Positions 35,978-45,611 of a stretch of DNA of 64,000 nucleotides are shown here, piece by piece. The notes under the pieces are model-generated. The model did not search any database and was not told where the DNA came from. It saw only the letters and a list, made by a program, of their open reading frames with translations. Origin of the DNA: Comamonadaceae bacterium (GTDB lineage Bacteria > Pseudomonadota > Gammaproteobacteria > Burkholderiales > Burkholderiaceae_C); assembly GCA_947475685.1 (NCBI GenBank), contig CANJNC010000007.1, positions 28,783 to 92,782 on the forward strand, read 5' to 3'. How positions within the stretch are numbered: the stretch's first letter is position 1; each line of letters starts with the position of its first letter. The translations under genes were made by a program, and so were the position numbers.

Positions 35978-37099
35978 ATGTCAATTGAACAAAATAAGGT
36001 TCTGGCTGCTGTGGCCAAGGAAAATAATCAAATTGAATTGGTTAACTTCGATTTTCCGGAGGTCACATCTACTACTGGTTTATTAAAAATTGAGATGACT
36101 GGTATGTGCGGCAGTGACTGGCCTTACTTTATAAACTATCCCCGGACAAAGGGATCAATGATTTTGGGTCACGAGACGGTTGGTCATGTTCATAAAATTG
36201 GTAATGAGGCTTTTGCGCGTTGGGGGGTGAAAGAGGGTGACCGGGTGGCTTTAGAGGAGTATTTACCTTGTGGCCACTGTCAATATTGCAGGACTGGTGA
36301 TTTTCGTTTATGCGATGAAACTGACACGCTACTTGGAAATGGTGTCAGGTATGGTTCAACTCCAATTTCTATGCAGCCATCTTTGTGGGGTGGTTACGCA
36401 AGGTATCAATATCTTCATTCCAACACAGTTTTTCATAAGATCCCAGTGGCCATGCCAGCCAAATTGGCAACTTTAGCCTTACCCTTGGGAAATGGGGTTG
36501 AGTGGGCGAATATTCAAGGCAAGGCTGGGCTAGGTAAGTGTGTTGTTATACAGGGCCCAGGTCAACAAGGTCTGGCATGCACAGTTGCGGCACATCAAGC
36601 TGGTGCATCCCAAATTATCGTAACAGGCCTTAAAGCTGATCAACATCGCTTAACCTTGGCTAGGGAGCTTGGTGCACACCATACAATTGCAATAGACGAA
36701 GTTGATTTATTGGAGTCAATTGCAGATATAACCGGCGGATTATTCGCTGATATTGTCATAGATTGTTCTTCTGGTGGTGAAGAAACTGTCCTTTCAGCCA
36801 TTCAAATAGCTAGGAAGGGAGGATTGGTTCTTTTATGTGGAAGAAAAGGGGTTCCTGTTAGGGAGTTTCAAAGTGATCAATTGTTCAAAAAGCATTTAAC
36901 TGTCCGTGGGATGCGTGGACATAGCTATCAAGCCGTAGAAATGGCGATTTCCATCATCTCTTCTGAACATTATCCTCTGCATAAACTGTGCACTCACACC
37001 TTCAAATTGGAAGAGGTAGAACTCGGACTAAGGACTTTGGGTGGAAAGGGCCTTCCAAATGCAATCCATTGTTGCGTAGACCCCTGGATGAATTCTTAA
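35978..37099 (+). CDS. Zinc-dependent medium-chain alcohol dehydrogenase
   Basis: GMCGSDWPYF; GHETVGHVHKIG; CGHCQYCRTGDFRLC structural zinc motif. Confidence 0.9.
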   Translation: MSIEQNKVLAAVAKENNQIELVNFDFPEVTSTTGLLKIEMTGMCGSDWPYFINYPRTKGSMILGHETVGHVHKIGNEAFARWGVKEGDRVALEEYLPCGHCQYCRTGDFRLCDETDTLLGNGVRYGSTPISMQPSLWGGYARYQYLHSNTVFHKIPVAMPAKLATLALPLGNGVEWANIQGKAGLGKCVVIQGPGQQGLACTVAAHQAGASQIIVTGLKADQHRLTLARELGAHHTIAIDEVDLLESIADITGGLFADIVIDCSSGGEETVLSAIQIARKGGLVLLCGRKGVPVREFQSDQLFKKHLTVRGMRGHSYQAVEMAISIISSEHYPLHKLCTHTFKLEEVELGLRTLGGKGLPNAIHCCVDPWMNS

Positions 37100-37173
37100 T
37101 AGGTATAAAGGTATCAAGAAATAGTATTTAATTGGTAATTTTTTTAAAAAAGTAGCCCAAATAGGTTAATATT

Positions 37174-37231
37174 GCTTTACTTTTCCGCAAGAAAAGCCCG
37201 AAAACGATCTAAATAATCGAAAAGGTAAAGC
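37174..37231 (+). promoter_or_regulatory. Inverted repeat ending at the flhD-like start codon; candidate RNA switch or operator
   Basis: GCTTTACTTTTC (37174-37185) vs GAAAAGGTAAAGC (37219-37231), one-base bulge; alternative proximal CTTTTC-cgcaa-GAAAAG (37180-37196). Confidence 0.5.
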
Positions 37232-37537
37232 ATGACAAACGAATTAATCAACGAAAGCATCAAGCAGATCAACCGTTCTTTCCTCACTCTTTGTTTAAAA
37301 GCGGATGAAAGTACCCTCATCGAAATGTCAATTAAATTGAATTGTGAAATATCGATTCTTCGTGCAATTAGAAAATTAGATCACACCGGTTTGGAAAGAG
37401 TTTATTTGACAGAGAGATTTCTTTTAAAACCAGCGGTTGATAACTCCACGATAGAAAGAATTTCAACGATTGAGACGATTGAACAAAGAAATCTTTTTAT
37501 AAGTTCAACCACTAGGAGTGGTAATGCAAGGATATAA
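37232..37537 (+). CDS. flhD-like: FlhD-like transcriptional activator subunit
   Basis: INRSFLTLCLKADESTLIEMSIKLNCEISILRAIRKLDHTGLERVYLTERFLLKP resembles the FlhD fold region; directly upstream of an FlhC-like ORF. Confidence 0.7.
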   Translation: MTNELINESIKQINRSFLTLCLKADESTLIEMSIKLNCEISILRAIRKLDHTGLERVYLTERFLLKPAVDNSTIERISTIETIEQRNLFISSTTRSGNARI

Positions 37538-38072
37538 AAATAAATCCTTGACTTCAAAAGAGTTTTCATTGATCGAAGAGTTGGTTGAATGGGGTTCAAA
37601 GATAAAAGACATAATGTGGATTGTCGGACTTCCTAAAACAGAGTTGTATGCAAAGCAATACTATAAAAGAATGGGAATTAGACCGCCTAACGGTTTGCCG
37701 GGTACGTCAACTGCTAAAACAGTGAAGTTAGAAAAAAAAATGCAGTACTCTGCCATGGCAGTTCAGTACTTAAATTTGTTAGATGACGGCATTGGCAAAA
37801 AAGAAGCAATGCTATCCGTATATAGATTGCACTGGATTGAGTACGGACACGATGAGATTCAAAATGTAAAGCCCTCAACGTGGTTTTCAACAACAAAAAA
37901 CATTGATTGCGGTATTGAAGAGCTAATTTCGTGTTTAACTTGCGGAGGAAAATATATCTTGGGCGCGGACGTTATTCAAGAAGTAAGCGATAGATGTATT
38001 TGGTGCAATCATCTACTGACATTTCATAGTTTCAAAAAAACGATAAAAAAGGGAGTTTTTATACAAAAATAA
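37524..38072 (+). CDS. flhC-like: FlhC-like transcriptional activator subunit
   Basis: RPPNGLPGTST and zinc motif CLTCGGKYILGADVIQEVSDRCIWC match the FlhC pattern; RBS AGGAG ahead of ATG 37524. Confidence 0.8.
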   Translation: MQGYKNKSLTSKEFSLIEELVEWGSKIKDIMWIVGLPKTELYAKQYYKRMGIRPPNGLPGTSTAKTVKLEKKMQYSAMAVQYLNLLDDGIGKKEAMLSVYRLHWIEYGHDEIQNVKPSTWFSTTKNIDCGIEELISCLTCGGKYILGADVIQEVSDRCIWCNHLLTFHSFKKTIKKGVFIQK

Positions 38073-38099
38073 TAGAAAAGTAAAAGATACAGTTGGTAC

Positions 38100-39071
38100 A
38101 TGGAATCAAAGTATCTAGTAATTGAAAACTTTTTAAACCCTATCCAACATCTATTGGGAGATTTGAGCATTACTGAAATAATGATCAATAAACCAAATGA
38201 CGTTTGGATCAAAAGGTTTGGCTTTAAATCGGAAAGAAATAAAGTCGAGATTTCGAATAATCAAATAAAAGGTTTGATTACACTATTGGCAAGTATTTCC
38301 AATAAGATAATTTCGGATGAAAAATCAATAGGCAAAAATTTCCAAGTCATTAGTGCAGCAATTCCAGGTTTTAGATTTGAAGCATGGAACACTCCAGTCA
38401 GTCTCTATGGCCCTGCAATGACTATACGAAGATTAGCGAGTGAGTCGATATCGCTAGAAAAGTTCAAAAATATAGGAACAATAAATCAAGAAACTTACAT
38501 AGAGTTGAAAAGATATGTAAGGGAGAAAAGAAATATTATCATAGCTGGTTCAACGGGTTCTGGTAAAACAACTTTTTGTAGTGCATTGTTGAACTGTATT
38601 GAAGTATTCGAACGATTAATAGTTATTGAAAATATTCAAGAATTAAATATAAAAATACCGAATGTTCTATATCTTCAAACAGATGAAGAACAAGGATACA
38701 GCGTTAATCGTTTGATCACATCAGCTTTAAGAGGTCTTCCAGACAGAATAATCGTTGGTGAATTGAGAGGTATAGAAGCTGATGGATATTTAAAAGCAGC
38801 GAATACAGGGCATCCAGGTTCAATTACAACTCTTCACGCAAACTCAGCTTTTGATGCATTGCAAAGGCTAGAAGATATGATTCAAAGCAGCAGTTTAATT
38901 GGTCAATCACATCATATAAAAAATAGAATAAAAACAGTAAATCCTATTGTTCTTTATTTAGATTCGATATTAGTGAATGGAACCTTTCTTCCAGTAGTTA
39001 CTCAAATAATCGAAATTATGGGGATTAAAAATAATGAGTACGTAATCAAATCGAAATTTGAATTTAAATGA
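38100..39071 (+). CDS. trbB: VirB11/TrbB-type secretion ATPase
   Basis: Walker A AGSTGSGKTTF; RGLPDRIIVGELRGIEADGYLKAANTGHPGSITTLHANSAFDALQRLEDM. Confidence 0.93.
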   Translation: MESKYLVIENFLNPIQHLLGDLSITEIMINKPNDVWIKRFGFKSERNKVEISNNQIKGLITLLASISNKIISDEKSIGKNFQVISAAIPGFRFEAWNTPVSLYGPAMTIRRLASESISLEKFKNIGTINQETYIELKRYVREKRNIIIAGSTGSGKTTFCSALLNCIEVFERLIVIENIQELNIKIPNVLYLQTDEEQGYSVNRLITSALRGLPDRIIVGELRGIEADGYLKAANTGHPGSITTLHANSAFDALQRLEDMIQSSSLIGQSHHIKNRIKTVNPIVLYLDSILVNGTFLPVVTQIIEIMGIKNNEYVIKSKFEFK

Positions 39072-39385
39072 AGAAAATCTTACTTATTACGACAATATGC
39101 TTGCTGTTGTCGTTTTTTTCACTATCTGCGACGGCTCAATCAATGGCCATGTCGTTTCCAGTTATAGATCAATTGATGTGCGGTTTTATTATTTACACAA
39201 AAGGAAAATTGGCACCTTATATTGCAGTTTTATGCATTGTGATCAGTGTCATCGGACATTGGTTAGGTATGACAAAAATATGGGGCTCACTTTTATATAT
39301 TTCAATGGGATTGGGTTTAATCATGGGTATAGGAACAGTAATTACAAGTGCAACTGGAACAAGCGCAAGTTGTCTATCATATTGA
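39068..39385 (+). CDS. trbC: VirB2/TrbC-type pilin
   Basis: Signal peptide ...SATAQS, two hydrophobic helices, size and position between TrbB- and TrbD-like ORFs. Confidence 0.75.
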   Translation: MKKILLITTICLLLSFFSLSATAQSMAMSFPVIDQLMCGFIIYTKGKLAPYIAVLCIVISVIGHWLGMTKIWGSLLYISMGLGLIMGIGTVITSATGTSASCLSY

Positions 39386-39397
39386 ATAGTAAAAATA

Positions 39398-39649
39398 ATG
39401 AGTCACTCTGTTATTTATTTAAGCCTGATACATAAAAATACAATTATGGATATAAGTCAAAATACGTTCGCAATACTAATTGGAATTACATTTTCAATTA
39501 TCATTTTAAATTTGTACTTTTTGTTGCTATTTATACCTTTGATTTATCAAGCTGTAAAAATAATTTATAAAAAAGATGAAATGTTTTTTGAAATTTATAG
39601 AAACTTTTCTAAAGAAATGGATTTTTGGGATCCATGGCAACATGAGTAA
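39398..39649 (+). CDS. trbD: VirB3/TrbD-like inner membrane protein
   Basis: TM segments followed by KIIYKKDEMFFEIYRNFSKEMDFW, resembling the TrbD C-terminus; position in operon. Confidence 0.65.
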   Translation: MSHSVIYLSLIHKNTIMDISQNTFAILIGITFSIIILNLYFLLLFIPLIYQAVKIIYKKDEMFFEIYRNFSKEMDFWDPWQHE

Positions 39650-39655
39650 AAGTCA

Positions 39656-42157
39656 ATGATAAGTTTGAAATCCGTTCTTTACAATTATCATTCAATAAAT
39701 AGCTCAGTATCGGAGTTATTACCTTGGTTTGAGCAATTGACATCAGATTTGATTATCAATCAAGACGGTTCTCTTTTAGCTGGTTATGAGATTGATGGCT
39801 TGGATAAATATTCCAGTTCTCAAATAGATTTTGATAGAGCAACTCAAATTTTTAACAATGCACTAACAATACTCAATGAAAAAAATACCATATGGATTTA
39901 TCTTGATAAGAGAAAAATAGAAATAAAAATTGAGAGTGATATTGCCAATCCTATTTCAAATTATATAGAAATCGAGTGGTCAAAGGATCTCAGCAAGAGA
40001 AAATTATTTTCATATAAGCACTTCATTTTTATATCATTTTTCCCAGAAGTAAATGAAAGTCAGTCTATTGAAAGATGGAGTCAAATTTTTCAAAATATCT
40101 TTTTAAAATTAAGAAATTTAAGTTTTAAATTAAAAAACGAAGACACAAAACAAATTATCGAAAAGTCAATTATTGAATTTGAAATTCAACTGGATTCATA
40201 TGAAAGAATTTTACAAAATTTGAAAATTAAAAGACTATCTAAAAATAATTTACTTACTCAACTTTCAAACAGGATCAACTTGGCTTCATTTCGGTCAAAA
40301 GTTCCATCATCTTTAGTGAATCAATTTTCATTAAATGAGTTTTTGTCAATGGACTCAATTCAAAGAGTGGAAAATGGTGTCATTAAATTTATCGGTGCTT
40401 TGGAAAATAAATATGTTTCTATGTTAACCATAAAAGGCTATCCAGGACAAGTTGAAAATACTGATATTGAAAAATTATTAAATGTAAATGCGGAATTTTC
40501 AATTATTCATGTTTACAAATTTTTATCAAATGAAAATTCAAAAAATACACTCATGAAAAAGGAACAGTATTATAGATCTAGAGTAAAGAGTCCTTTTGTA
40601 CAGATGTTTGAGAAAGTTTCTGGTGTTGAATCCACTCGGTCAGATTTAGGCCAGTTATCTTTTGCCAACGACTCAAGGCAAGCTTTGATTTCTATTTCGG
40701 AAACTGAAAATAAGTTTGGCTACCACACTATGTCTATCTTATTGGTTGCAGAATCTTTGGATGAGTTGGATAAAACAAGAAAATTAGTTTCCGAAGTATT
40801 GATAAATATTGGGTTCGGTGTAATAAAGGAAGTCCTACATCAAATTGGTGCATTTATGACATCTATTCCAGGTGCTGTAGACGTAATGGTTAGGAGTACT
40901 TTAATTGGCATTTCGAATTTAGCACATCTAGTTCTTTTAAGATCAGTTAAGTCGGAATCCAAATTTAATCAACACCTCAGTGAACAAAGAAGAATAAATT
41001 CACCTTTTCTATGTATGTTTCCTACCAGCTCTGGGGTGCCGGAGTATTTTAATTTTCACGTAGGCGATGTAGGTCATTTTTTATTGATAGGTCAAAGTGG
41101 TGGTGGTAAGTCAACATTGGTAAATTTTTTAATTTCAATGTGGCAAAAATACTATCCTTGTAAAACAATCATTTTGGATAAAGATAAAAGTTGTTATCTT
41201 ACTGTGAAAGCTTTAGGGGGAGAGTATATAAATTTATCGACCAATCAAAATGAAAATTACCGCATGAACCCGTTGCAATGGTTAAAGGACCCAGAGAAAT
41301 TTCCATTAATTTCTTCTTGGATCATTGGTTTATTGACAACGTTCAACAATGATGAAATTTCACCATATAAAGTGGATCGTCTAAACCATGCTTTGAAATT
41401 ACTAACCAGTTCATTAAGTAATAATTTAACCTTATCACATTTAAAGCTAATGTTGGATGGTATTGATGAAGATCTTTCATCAAGACTTTCACCTTGGGTG
41501 AGAGATGATCAAAGTGAGTTTGGGTTTGGATACTTGTTTGATAATCCAATCGATACATTTTTTCAAAATCTATCCGGTCAAGTTACTTCAATTATTTGTA
41601 TTGATTTCAGTTCAATTCTCGTTAATGAAAAGATTGCGCGACCGATTATTGAGTACCTATTGTTATGTGTGGATAACTATATAGATGGTAAATCGCCATC
41701 CTTAATTTATCTTGAGGAGGCTTGGTATTTGTTAAAAGATAAAAGATTCAGCGATCAATTTGAAAACTGGATAAAAACTATGCGGAAAAAAATGGCGATC
41801 ATTGGTTTAAGTACACAGTCGGTTGATGACATTAAAAAATTGAGTATAAGTGCTGCTATCAATGACAATATTAAAACTAAAATCTTTTTACCAAATCTTC
41901 AAGTGGATGCATCTTATTCAACTTACAAGGATTTTCTAGGTTTAAGAGATGATCATATACAAAGTTTAAAAAATTTAACTCCAAAGTCACAGTACTTAAT
42001 TTGGCAAGATGAAAGAGTGCGTGTGATCGATGCAAAACTTCCTTTTCGTGTTTTGGCTTTGACTAGATCTGACTCATATGCAATCGGTCTTTTTGATCAA
42101 TTATTTCATAAGAATGGTCTTGAGGCTTATATGAGTAAACTTGAGAAATTGCAATGA
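39656..42157 (+). CDS. trbE: VirB4/TrbE-type ATPase
   Basis: Walker A LLIGQSGGGKSTLVNFL; IYLEEAWYLLKD Walker B region; KMAIIGLSTQSVDDIKKL. Confidence 0.92.
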   Translation: MISLKSVLYNYHSINSSVSELLPWFEQLTSDLIINQDGSLLAGYEIDGLDKYSSSQIDFDRATQIFNNALTILNEKNTIWIYLDKRKIEIKIESDIANPISNYIEIEWSKDLSKRKLFSYKHFIFISFFPEVNESQSIERWSQIFQNIFLKLRNLSFKLKNEDTKQIIEKSIIEFEIQLDSYERILQNLKIKRLSKNNLLTQLSNRINLASFRSKVPSSLVNQFSLNEFLSMDSIQRVENGVIKFIGALENKYVSMLTIKGYPGQVENTDIEKLLNVNAEFSIIHVYKFLSNENSKNTLMKKEQYYRSRVKSPFVQMFEKVSGVESTRSDLGQLSFANDSRQALISISETENKFGYHTMSILLVAESLDELDKTRKLVSEVLINIGFGVIKEVLHQIGAFMTSIPGAVDVMVRSTLIGISNLAHLVLLRSVKSESKFNQHLSEQRRINSPFLCMFPTSSGVPEYFNFHVGDVGHFLLIGQSGGGKSTLVNFLISMWQKYYPCKTIILDKDKSCYLTVKALGGEYINLSTNQNENYRMNPLQWLKDPEKFPLISSWIIGLLTTFNNDEISPYKVDRLNHALKLLTSSLSNNLTLSHLKLMLDGIDEDLSSRLSPWVRDDQSEFGFGYLFDNPIDTFFQNLSGQVTSIICIDFSSILVNEKIARPIIEYLLLCVDNYIDGKSPSLIYLEEAWYLLKDKRFSDQFENWIKTMRKKMAIIGLSTQSVDDIKKLSISAAINDNIKTKIFLPNLQVDASYSTYKDFLGLRDDHIQSLKNLTPKSQYLIWQDERVRVIDAKLPFRVLALTRSDSYAIGLFDQLFHKNGLEAYMSKLEKLQ

Positions 42158-42912
42158 TATTTTTATTGTTCATACTTCTTTTCTTCTCATCAATGTGTAA
42201 CGGTTTTGTTGTTTTTGATCCAAGTAATTTTGTTAAAAATTCACTCACTGCAGCGCAAACTGCTGAACAAATAATGTATCTCACATCTCAATATGAGACA
42301 CAGATGAGGCAATTTGAAACACAACTTTTACAACTCAAAAATTTACCTGTTTCCTCTATCAATTCACTATTAAGTAAAAACCACGATGATCTTTTAATTT
42401 CTACAGAATTTTTTTCCAAAGTTCAGTCTATTTATGGGTCGATTAACCAAATTCAGGAAAACTTCAAAAAAAGACTCGATTCTGCAAAAATGTTGAATTT
42501 GGATTGGAATCAATACGTTGCATATGAAAAAAATCGAATTGATCGCGTTCAAAGTGATGCAATTTCAATATCTTCAAATGATTTATCTGCTTTGAGTCGA
42601 TTAAAGCGTGATTACGAATTCGCAAGTGAAATAGAAATGAAAATTGGTGCTACATCTGGAGTACACGAAGCCATGCAACTGCTTAATGTTCAAGTGAATC
42701 GAATCATTACCCAGAATGCTGATTTTTTAAAAACTCTTAATGTTTCAATCAATACACCTAGTAGTGGAGTAAATTTATTAGAACGTAATTTTAAGGATCA
42801 ACTTGAATTGAACCGCAAACTAGCGAGAGAAAATCTTGATCGGTCGAGGTACGAGGGCGAGTTAAAGGTTTTTAATATATTAGGTAATGGTTATTTTCGA
42901 AATGATAAATGA
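42154..42912 (+). CDS. trbJ: VirB5/TrbJ-like protein
   Basis: VVFDPSNFVKNSLTAAQTAEQIMYLTSQYETQMRQFETQLLQLKNLP resembles TrbJ N-terminus; ATGA overlap with trbE. Confidence 0.8.
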   Translation: MIFLLFILLFFSSMCNGFVVFDPSNFVKNSLTAAQTAEQIMYLTSQYETQMRQFETQLLQLKNLPVSSINSLLSKNHDDLLISTEFFSKVQSIYGSINQIQENFKKRLDSAKMLNLDWNQYVAYEKNRIDRVQSDAISISSNDLSALSRLKRDYEFASEIEMKIGATSGVHEAMQLLNVQVNRIITQNADFLKTLNVSINTPSSGVNLLERNFKDQLELNRKLARENLDRSRYEGELKVFNILGNGYFRNDK

Positions 42913-43888
42913 ATTTTTTAAAATTCTTTTTATTTTTCTTCTTTTGATTACATTCAATTGTGCATTTCCTCAATCTTGTGATTCAACTTCTGGTACTTGT
43001 TTAAACTCGATCGAGGAGATTGATAAAACAAAAAATCTTGCTCTGAATGCTACTAACCAGTTGAAATTGGCTATCAATTCTTTAGAAGATCAAATCGATT
43101 CTTTGCGAAATCGACACCCATTCAATTCTCTTGGTCGTCAATTGATTGTTTCACTTTTTTTAATTGTGTTTATGTGGACTGTGATTAAAAATATGTTGAT
43201 CAAACCTGTTTTTAGTCAAATTTTTATAGATTTGATTTATCCATGCATAATTTTAGGCTTGGCGTTTGAAGTATTGGATCAAAACTTAGGACAAATTATT
43301 GCTGATTCTGTTCAGTATGTGACTCTTCTCTTGACGTCAAATTCTCAATCAAATGGAACTTCAAGCGAAATCTACGCTGAAAATCTTTTGAAGTCTATGT
43401 TAGTTATTTGGAGTGCACCTAATACAGTCGATCCATTTAACTTAGGCATAGAGGCTGGCATCTCTTTTTTATTAAAAATTATTTCTATTTTCTTTATCGG
43501 TTCTTCAATTGCTATTGGTTTAACGTATTTACTCATAGCAAAATTTCAAATTGCTTTGGCAATAGCCTTAGGTCCCATCATGATCCCATGGGCCATTTGG
43601 AAGCCAACGGAGTTTATTTTTACGAGTTGGTTAAATTTTTTGCTTAAATCGTCCTTTGTTTCACTATGTGTTTTTTCTATTGAATCAATTTTGAGAGTTT
43701 CTATTGCTAATTTAGTCAACCTTTCTGATTCTGTTACGCAAGGCGTAAATTCAGCTTTTGTATATGGAACAGTTTCACTGCTTTCATTGCTCTTTTCTTT
43801 GCTTATTTCTAAATCTTTTGAAATAGGATCTGGACTTATTTCGGGTGTTTCCTCAGGATTTCGACAAATTGGTCCTGTATTGAAATGA
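42902..43888 (+). CDS. trbL: VirB6/TrbL-like polytopic membrane protein
   Basis: Multiple TM segments; AKFQIALAIALGPIMIPWAIWKPTEFIFTSWLNFLLKSSF resembles the TrbL core. Confidence 0.82.
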   Translation: MINEFFKILFIFLLLITFNCAFPQSCDSTSGTCLNSIEEIDKTKNLALNATNQLKLAINSLEDQIDSLRNRHPFNSLGRQLIVSLFLIVFMWTVIKNMLIKPVFSQIFIDLIYPCIILGLAFEVLDQNLGQIIADSVQYVTLLLTSNSQSNGTSSEIYAENLLKSMLVIWSAPNTVDPFNLGIEAGISFLLKIISIFFIGSSIAIGLTYLLIAKFQIALAIALGPIMIPWAIWKPTEFIFTSWLNFLLKSSFVSLCVFSIESILRVSIANLVNLSDSVTQGVNSAFVYGTVSLLSLLFSLLISKSFEIGSGLISGVSSGFRQIGPVLK

Positions 43889-44122: not shown

Positions 44123-44968
44123 ATGTCTATTTGTTCATTAGCGAAACATGTTTTGCGGCTTTTACTCACTATTTCTTGTTTTATGGGTTTTATTTCGTTT
44201 ACGCATGCACAAACACCCTCAGGTAAAACCCAACTTCAATGGCTAGGTCAGGCCTCATTTAAATTAACTTCTCCCGGAGGTAAAAATATCATTATTGATC
44301 CGTGGATTACTGGTGGCCCCAAAGCTCCCACGATTTACAAAAAAGATTTATCTGCTCTTGGAAAAGTTGATTTTGTTCTTGTTTCTCATGGTCATGTTGA
44401 TCATTTAGGTGATGCGCCCGATATTGCCAAATTAAATAGTGCAGTTCTATATGGTCCTGCTGACATGATTACTCCTTTAATTACTTTGGGATTAATGCCT
44501 GCTAATTTAACCCATCGCTTCAATAAATCTGGTTCAATTCTTCCAGCTCAAGGAATCAAAGTAACTGCTGTTCGAGCAGATCACTCGTCTTTGATCGTTT
44601 TTAACAACCCAACGACTAACAAAAATGAATCACACCCCGCTGGTGAGGCTGTTGGATATATTATTCAGTTAGAAAATGGGTTCAAAATTTGGCACATGGG
44701 AGATACGGGTCTATTTTCAGACATGAAATTTATCAGTGAGTATTACAAACCTGATTTGGTATTGATTCCAATTGGTGGGAATTTTACGATGGATCCAGTT
44801 GATGCTGCCTATGCCATCAATACCTTGATAAAGCCTAAGATGGTGATTCCAATTCACTATAACTCTAACCCACTTACGAAAGGCACCTTAGCAGAGTTTC
44901 AAGAAGCGATGAAATCAAGTCAGACTAAAGTTATTCCAATGGTTGAAGGTCAGACTTTAGAGTTTTAA
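44123..44968 (+). CDS. Exported metal-dependent hydrolase (UPF0173/MBL-fold)
   Basis: Signal peptide; VSHGHVDHLGD; VLIPIGGNFTMDPVDAAYAI. Confidence 0.88.
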   Translation: MSICSLAKHVLRLLLTISCFMGFISFTHAQTPSGKTQLQWLGQASFKLTSPGGKNIIIDPWITGGPKAPTIYKKDLSALGKVDFVLVSHGHVDHLGDAPDIAKLNSAVLYGPADMITPLITLGLMPANLTHRFNKSGSILPAQGIKVTAVRADHSSLIVFNNPTTNKNESHPAGEAVGYIIQLENGFKIWHMGDTGLFSDMKFISEYYKPDLVLIPIGGNFTMDPVDAAYAINTLIKPKMVIPIHYNSNPLTKGTLAEFQEAMKSSQTKVIPMVEGQTLEF

Positions 44969-44969
44969 G

Positions 44970-45611
44970 ATGATTGATTTATACACTTTTTTCCGCAGTG
45001 GAACTTCTCATCGCCTGCGAATCGCTTTAGCTTTAAAAGGCTTGGATGCAAATCACATTCCTGTTGACTTAAGAACGGAGGAGCATTCAAAAGCAGCCTT
45101 TATGTCCATTCAACCACAAGGCTTGGTTCCAGCTTTGAGAGTCGATGAACATGTTCTTATACAATCACCAGCAATTATTGAATGGCTAGAAGAAGCTTAC
45201 CCCAGTAGGCCTTTCTTGCCTAAAGACTTATTGGCTAGACAGTATGTTCGTTCTATCGCTGCTATAGTGGGTTGTGACATTCATCCGGTTAACAATAGGC
45301 GGGTCCTTGAACATTTAAGAGGACACTTCAAGGCTGACGAAGATCAAATTTTAGAATGGTGTGCAAAATGGATTGTCAGTGGCTTTGATGCGCTAGAAAA
45401 AATCTTAAATGCAGAAAAAAATAGAGGACTTTATTGTTATGGCAATGAGCCAACCCTGGCTGATATTTATTTGATACCTCAAGTTGAGAGTGCTAGACGC
45501 TTTAAAATAGACATGAATCGCTGGCCCTTAATTCAGGCGATTGATAAGCAGTGCATGACTTTATCTGCTTTTATAAACGCGGCGCCATCAAAGCAAAAAG
45601 ATGCTTCATGA
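44970..45611 (+). CDS. Zeta-class GST, maleylacetoacetate/maleylpyruvate isomerase
   Basis: FRSGTSHRLRIALALKGL; NPQGLVPAL-type motif; CDIHPVNNRRVLEHL. Confidence 0.88.
   Translation: MIDLYTFFRSGTSHRLRIALALKGLDANHIPVDLRTEEHSKAAFMSIQPQGLVPALRVDEHVLIQSPAIIEWLEEAYPSRPFLPKDLLARQYVRSIAAIVGCDIHPVNNRRVLEHLRGHFKADEDQILEWCAKWIVSGFDALEKILNAEKNRGLYCYGNEPTLADIYLIPQVESARRFKIDMNRWPLIQAIDKQCMTLSAFINAAPSKQKDAS

Follow-up and report, generated by a model that had tools for sequence, protein, structure and literature searches.

The window analysed here, a 64,000-nucleotide stretch of contig CANJNC010000007.1 from a Comamonadaceae bacterium, carries at 37232-43888 on the + strand eight intact, tightly packed open reading frames (ORFs) of the flhD-flhC-virB11-virB2-virB3-virB4-virB5-virB6 type, which we call locus A. 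Coordinates, strand, order and frames are all as described in the initial annotation, and the spacings between successive ORFs are -14, +27, -4, +12, +6, -4 and -26 bp. The locus, its flanks and two short sequence elements discussed below are laid out as follows, with protein identities given relative to G105, the genome of another species of the same genus:

35978..37099, + strand: zinc alcohol dehydrogenase (ADH), upstream flank, a synteny marker outside the system; 84% identity in G105
37159..37231, + strand: conserved block 5' of flhD (AAATAGGTTAATATTGCTTT ... CGAAAACGATCTAAATAATCGAAAAGGTAAAGC), near-identical in G105
37232..37537, + strand: flhD-like regulator subunit, 101 aa; 79% identity in G105
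37524..38072, + strand: flhC-like regulator subunit, 182 aa; PF05280 1.9e-5; 75% identity in G105
38034..38060, + strand: candidate operator AAA-N7/8-AAA-N5/7-GTTTTT, overlapping the flhC 3' end, upstream of trbB
38100..39071, + strand: virB11/trbB ATPase; TIGR02782 6.5e-57; Walker A GSTGSGKT
39068..39385, + strand: virB2/trbC pilin; PF04956 (TrbC) 2.2e-5; 67% identity in G105
39398..39649, + strand: virB3/trbD; PF05101 1.4e-5, above cut-off
39656..42157, + strand: virB4/trbE ATPase; TIGR00929 3.3e-107; Walker A GQSGGGKS; 62% identity in G105
42154..42912, + strand: trbJ/virB5; TIGR02780 6.2e-11; 69% identity in G105
42887..43888, + strand: trbL/virB6; PF04610 1.5e-11; 73% identity in G105
44123..45611, + strand: metallo-beta-lactamase-fold (MBL) protein and maiA-like GST, downstream flank; 87% and 77% in G105

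Pfam and NCBIfam profiles bore out the proposed VirB11-, VirB2-, VirB3-, VirB4-, VirB5- and VirB6-like assignments and their trbB-C-D-E-J-L order. The VirB11/TrbB ORF matched T2SSE (2e-38) as well as TrbB_P (6.5e-57), VirB4/TrbE matched CagE_TrbE_VirB (1e-14) and is 39-44% identical to its relatives on plasmid 2 of Polaromonas sp. JS666 and in a groundwater Burkholderiales metagenome-assembled genome (L025), and VirB2/TrbC scored slightly below the curated cut-off of the TrbC profile. Locus A is surrounded by aromatic catabolism and TctC genes; the window's contig (C7) and a second contig, C51, hold very many paralogues of TctC (Bug-type solute receptors) amid ring-hydroxylating dioxygenases and CoA-transferases. 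GC content is 32% in locus A, 38% in the surrounding stretch of ~38 kb (window 10000-48000) and 47-50% in the region around that stretch (47-49% at the ends of the window). The same genes at the same low GC lie in G105 (C2:58000-88000; L093, L094) at saturated dS, so this AT-rich stretch is not recent foreign DNA.

The first two ORFs had been likened to FlhD and FlhC, a resemblance that held for FlhC and, for FlhD, emerged at the level of the family. The likely start of flhC is the ATG at 37524 (the mechanical ORF start is the GTG at 37518). Searched alone, the FlhC-like ORF matched PF05280 at E = 1.9e-5 with 24.9 bits, slightly under the cut-off of 27, and its family profile matched solved FlhC (2avu_E) at 1.3e-7; the FlhC-type zinc motif that had been pointed out is indeed there, its four cysteines (139, 142, 160 and 163) all invariant. 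The FlhD-like ORF returned no match in a single-sequence Pfam search, but the best PDB match of its five-member family profile was solved FlhD (8j56_A, E = 0.0068), and the best four Foldseek matches of its AlphaFold model (pLDDT 75) were all FlhD chains, though weak ones (E 0.33-1.1). We regard the product of 37232..37537 as FlhD-like with moderate confidence. The sole FlhC match in the window's genome is this T4SS-linked flhC. A flagellar role for the pair was considered and rejected: flagellins are present, but the nearest relatives of the pair are plasmid regulators. The open frames that carry the flagellin N-terminal domains are very long, at 1078 and 1437 aa (G000:C32:15 and C64:12797).

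All eight genes recur in G105 in unchanged order, again flanked by ADH on one side and MBL/maiA on the other, an agreement far beyond chance. Between the window's genome and G105 all frames are intact, and protein identity ranges from 49% (VirB3) to 81% (VirB8). For the genes of locus A and of two further loci, B and C, dN lies between 0.13 and 0.37, set against dS that is saturated or at least 1.6; these genes are under purifying selection, and the earlier argument from intact frames against simple decay holds across species.

Locus B came to light when the window's genome (G000; 3.77 Mb in 146 contigs, estimated contamination 1.5%) was searched with joined JS666 plasmid proteins. It lies on contig C51 and encodes VirB8, VirB9 and VirB10, then TcpQ, the PilN secretin, a PilO-like protein, the PilQ ATPase, PilR and PilS; upstream of virB8 are genes for an LLM-type oxidoreductase (named by inspection) and TctC, and no trbL. 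Locus B of G105 adjoins the same LLM gene (94% identity). Locus C is a lone T4CP gene on contig C36 (3747-5720; L091), unlinked to loci A and B and placed between thioesterase and FMN-binding protein genes; its product matches TraG-D_C (1.5e-10) and SXT_TraD (TIGR03743, 3.8e-23), with Walker A and Walker B intact. In most species (L091, L114-L121) this T4CP has no clear N-terminal transmembrane helices, which is unusual; the relative in G094 has two. G105 also holds a second, truncated T4CP copy, a 178 aa frame at C29:37952-38461 with the same candidate operator sequence ahead of it. The other parts that the mobile-element suggestion placed elsewhere do exist, but scattered over two loci: VirB8-9-10 and a type IVb pilus on C51, a T4CP on C36, all syntenic across species. 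The MPF_T proteins VirB2, B3, B4, B5, B6, B8, B9, B10 and B11 are all present, six in the window and VirB8/9/10 on C51, so that G000, judged by these nine, holds a nearly complete mating-pair set plus T4CP. They are not co-localised, the components falling into three separate loci in both G000 and G105.

A split, AT-rich locus could in principle stem from misassembly or contaminating contigs, given an assembly in 146 contigs with 1.5% estimated contamination and a locus whose GC differs strongly from that of G000. We consider this extremely improbable: other species, assembled independently, show the same junctions ADH-flhD, trbL-MBL, LLM-virB8 and thioesterase-T4CP. Joining C7 to C51 end to end was tried and rejected, their shared end sequence being no longer than chance, and a contiguous ICE or plasmid in the G000 assembly was rejected likewise, the two halves adjoining unrelated metabolic genes.

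Of the relaxase families, the search covered MobH and MobP. In the window's genome, MobP (PF03432) had zero matches and MobH (PF07514) sub-cut-off matches alone, the best of which (E 0.0035) was rejected as a relaxase, being an HD-domain protein; a query with JS666 mobH/traD likewise turned up no relaxase. The initial proposal of a mobile element is contradicted by these searches, by flanks shared with G105 at saturating dS and by synteny at the other loci. Nor was mobility independent of the host phylogeny borne out, the machine having the same flanks in diverged species and forming one clade in trees. Because these flanks are shared by diverged species, frames are intact and dN is low against saturated dS, we conclude that the T4SS is vertically inherited and is neither a mobile nor a decaying element. 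One might still suppose that it persists as a helper, used by mobilisable plasmids or islands that bring their own relaxase, given that use of T4SSs in trans is considered common (PMC3158045) and that AcaCD-type regulators are hijacked by genomic islands (PMC4207636). This seems to us improbable, as no MobH or MobP relaxase was found in G000 and retention as fixed genes, under purifying selection over saturating divergence, needs a benefit to the host.

Across the genus, locus B was detected in 11 of 85 genomes, in a survey that scored no more than three candidates per genome, which makes an individual absence less certain here than in the case of the T4CP. The T4CP occurred in 10 of these 11 and in none of the remaining genomes (Fisher p 3.5e-12, uncorrected for phylogeny), always at one conserved genomic site. 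Locus B has two contexts: the LLM flank in seven genomes (G000, G105, G028, G037, G101, G094 and G025) and a different flank in four (G005, G020, G031 and G033). VirB4, by profile search, and with it a complete locus A, was found in just two of the 11 (G000 and G105); G025 adds a trbL fragment at a contig end, adjoining the same MBL and maiA-like markers. In G101 and G094, contigs stop next to MBL, at the expected position of locus A, which suggests lost AT-rich DNA; in G005, G020, G031 and G033, locus A is absent after ADH. Either AT-rich locus A was lost in assembly or binning, or most species keep just loci B and C, and the main weakness of our case is that VirB4 was seen in just two assemblies, with a third adding no more than a trbL fragment. 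VirB11-like genes of G025 and G031 were rejected as a second locus A, since they resemble Tad-type clusters. A congener assembled in two contigs has another kind of T4SS, encoded contiguously and accompanied by genes for a secretin and a pilus ATPase (G089:C2:92000-112000; L103, L104), on a 149 kb contig that is probably a conjugative plasmid.

The same distribution bears on the idea that a conjugative plasmid or ICE integrated in the distant past, was split up by rearrangements and is now a slowly decaying remnant. None of these loci carries relaxase, AAA ATPase or DUF4400 genes, locus A is AT-rich (32% GC) and it is seemingly missing in several genomes, all of which would fit. Against decay, every frame is intact in G000 and G105 alike at protein identities of 49-81%, dN is low where dS is saturated, and 10 of 11 locus-B genomes keep the partner T4CP; we consider such a remnant very unlikely.

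Plasmid relatives point to where the machine came from. On the JS666 plasmids and an Azonexus plasmid, the corresponding genes form one cluster, mobH-traD-x-DUF4400-trbB-C-D-E-J-L and later virB8-9-10-tcpQ-pil. FlhC-type genes are annotated ahead of mobH in JS666 plasmid 1 and Azonexus, and JS666 plasmid 2 has an unannotated one just upstream of mobH (NC_007950.1 226030-226623; L018:7504-8097). L025 (JACPOK010000026) has a contiguous flhD-flhC-mobH-traD-...-virB8-9-10 cluster with flhC tandemly duplicated: its 366 aa FlhC-like gene (L025:2238-3338) consists of two tandem FlhC domains, and the Azonexus plasmid FlhC (L020:7058-8251, 397 aa) also resembles two fused copies. Trees of VirB4 and of VirB8+9 agree, each joining the genus clade first to L025 (support 99/98 and 98/98) and then to JS666 plasmid 2 with L024, which implies that loci A and B derive from one such cluster; as judged by these gene trees, the two loci are shown to share ancestry and a single origin. 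Locus A looks like the ancestral cluster minus the putatively deleted mobH-traD-x-DUF4400 segment between flhC and trbB, and the FlhDC-type pair goes back to a plasmid-type ancestor in which flhD-flhC already stood ahead of mobH-traD-trb. A literature search for FlhC in connection with MOBH/MPF_T plasmids of Burkholderiales found no published work.

The block at 37159..37231 stands out in the intergenic DNA 5' of flhD, which is otherwise diverged between the window and G105, and is a probable flhDC promoter/operator. Two more specific identities were rejected: the sequence does not match the AcaCD core, as an AcaCD-like operator should, and the one sign of an FlhDC-like operator is a string resembling an E. 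coli FlhDC half-site, seen by eye. The A-tract/T-tract pattern at 38034..38060 recurs ahead of virB8 (nine species) and of the T4CP gene (four species). When a position weight matrix trained solely on the elements upstream of virB8 was scanned over 382 upstream regions, the top score fell on the G105 trb promoter, at the flhC 3' end, and, of nine regions upstream of the T4CP gene, five scored above the 95th percentile of controls. Alignment suggested a tightened pattern, AAA-N7/8-AAA-N5/7-GTTTTTT, which in 545 kb of genus loci had 13 matches, every one at a virB8, trb or T4CP promoter, and 0.5 matches in dinucleotide shuffles; the tightening followed sight of the T4CP sites, so this count is partly circular. 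With five Ts, 15 of 16 matches in the same 545 kb lay at T4SS promoters, the window's 38034-38060 included. Across whole genomes the pattern did not outnumber its reversed control and turned up near rodA and lepA as well, and it was rejected as a genome-wide regulon finder for want of specificity. We treat the element as a candidate operator.

The three loci thus have intact frames and the same flanks across species, and in our judgement they are reasonably likely to represent a domesticated MPF_T T4SS with no detected relaxase, descended from a JS666-type MobH plasmid and retaining a putative switch and export function. Locus A would supply motors and inner-membrane/pilus parts (VirB11, 2, 3, 4, 5 and 6), locus B the VirB8-9-10 proteins and a type IVb thin pilus, and locus C the coupling protein, the relaxase having apparently been lost from the ancestral MobH plasmid cluster. 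The FlhD-FlhC-like pair may act in the manner of AcaCD/SetCD and turn on expression of the machine, presumably by binding the A-tract/T-tract element that precedes the trb, virB8 and T4CP genes. Since the machine has retained VirB5, VirB11 and a T4CP whose Walker motifs are intact, we infer export: going by its gene content, its present role is probably an export task of another kind, one in which a substrate would leave on contact rather than the element transferring itself, with protein effectors the most likely cargo and DNA a less likely one. The initial annotation's second suggestion, a repurposed machine under its own FlhDC-type switch, is supported, except that this is not an inner-membrane half machine, as VirB8-10, the type IVb pilus and the T4CP are kept elsewhere. 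We advance more tentatively, as a possibility somewhat less likely than not, that the three-locus T4SS and the type IVb pilus form one regulon under a domesticated plasmid FlhDC-type activator and pass effectors or DNA from one environmental bacterium to another.

The cargo might alternatively be the cell's own DNA, with the dispersed T4SS acting as an uptake or release machine under an FlhDC-type competence switch, comparable to ComB or archaeal Ced. Conserved, scattered chromosomal loci without a relaxase are the layout reported for ComB (PMC13395361), the T4CP descends from the DNA-transfer TraD family (TIGR03743), and domesticated conjugation machinery moves cellular DNA in archaea (PMC9905601). 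Yet ComB does without VirB5 and VirD4, a lack linked to uptake as opposed to export (PMC13395361), and here TrbJ/VirB5 and the T4CP are kept; we think DNA traffic of this kind unlikely. On the preferred reading of a domesticated export machine, one Burkholderiales group has apparently taken over a conjugation-type apparatus for good. If the three loci do cooperate, they would be a further dispersed domesticated T4SS besides ComB, set apart by components for export, a thin pilus and an FlhDC-type regulator—a selfish transfer machine turned host organelle, apparently through relaxase loss and T4CP relocation with the switch kept. Surveys of conjugation and secretion generally seek co-localised genes, and a three-locus machine would be missed or taken for debris; the loci described here name specific genes and promoters for testing.

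Among known systems, the closest are JS666 plasmids 1 and 2, the Azonexus hydrophilus plasmid and L025, which have the same families in the same order and are nearest in both trees. Their clusters are contiguous, with mobH and traD; here the genes occupy three loci, mobH was not found and the T4CP is diverged and lies at a distance. Helicobacter pylori ComB is likewise a chromosomal, relaxase-free MPF_T system (PMC7366825), dedicated to DNA uptake, without VirB5 and VirD4 and encoded at three conserved loci (PMC13395361). That lack is not shared by the G000 machine, which has TrbJ and a T4CP, and the ancestry of the two differs. To our knowledge, ComB has neither an FlhDC-type regulator nor a type IVb pilus. 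MOBless T4SSs, mostly judged to be protein secretion systems and found in environmental bacteria too (Guglielmini et al. 2011; PMC3158045), resemble ours in having no relaxase detected and differ in that the components here are not co-localised. Archaeal Ced is also chromosomally domesticated conjugation machinery (PMC9905601), but it is archaeal, imports DNA and has unrelated gene order and regulation. For the switch, the models are SetCD, from SXT/R391 ICEs, and AcaCD, from IncA/C plasmids, which we compared by description; both are heteromeric members of the FlhDC family that activate conjugation genes in a class 2-like manner near -35 through element-specific motifs (PMC4207636, PMC4542580). 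The AcaCD core operator, GCCCTAAAAGGGC (PMC4605294), is unlike our candidate element, and SetCD and AcaCD belong to mobile elements, whereas the FlhDC-type pair described here sits in an apparently non-mobile system.
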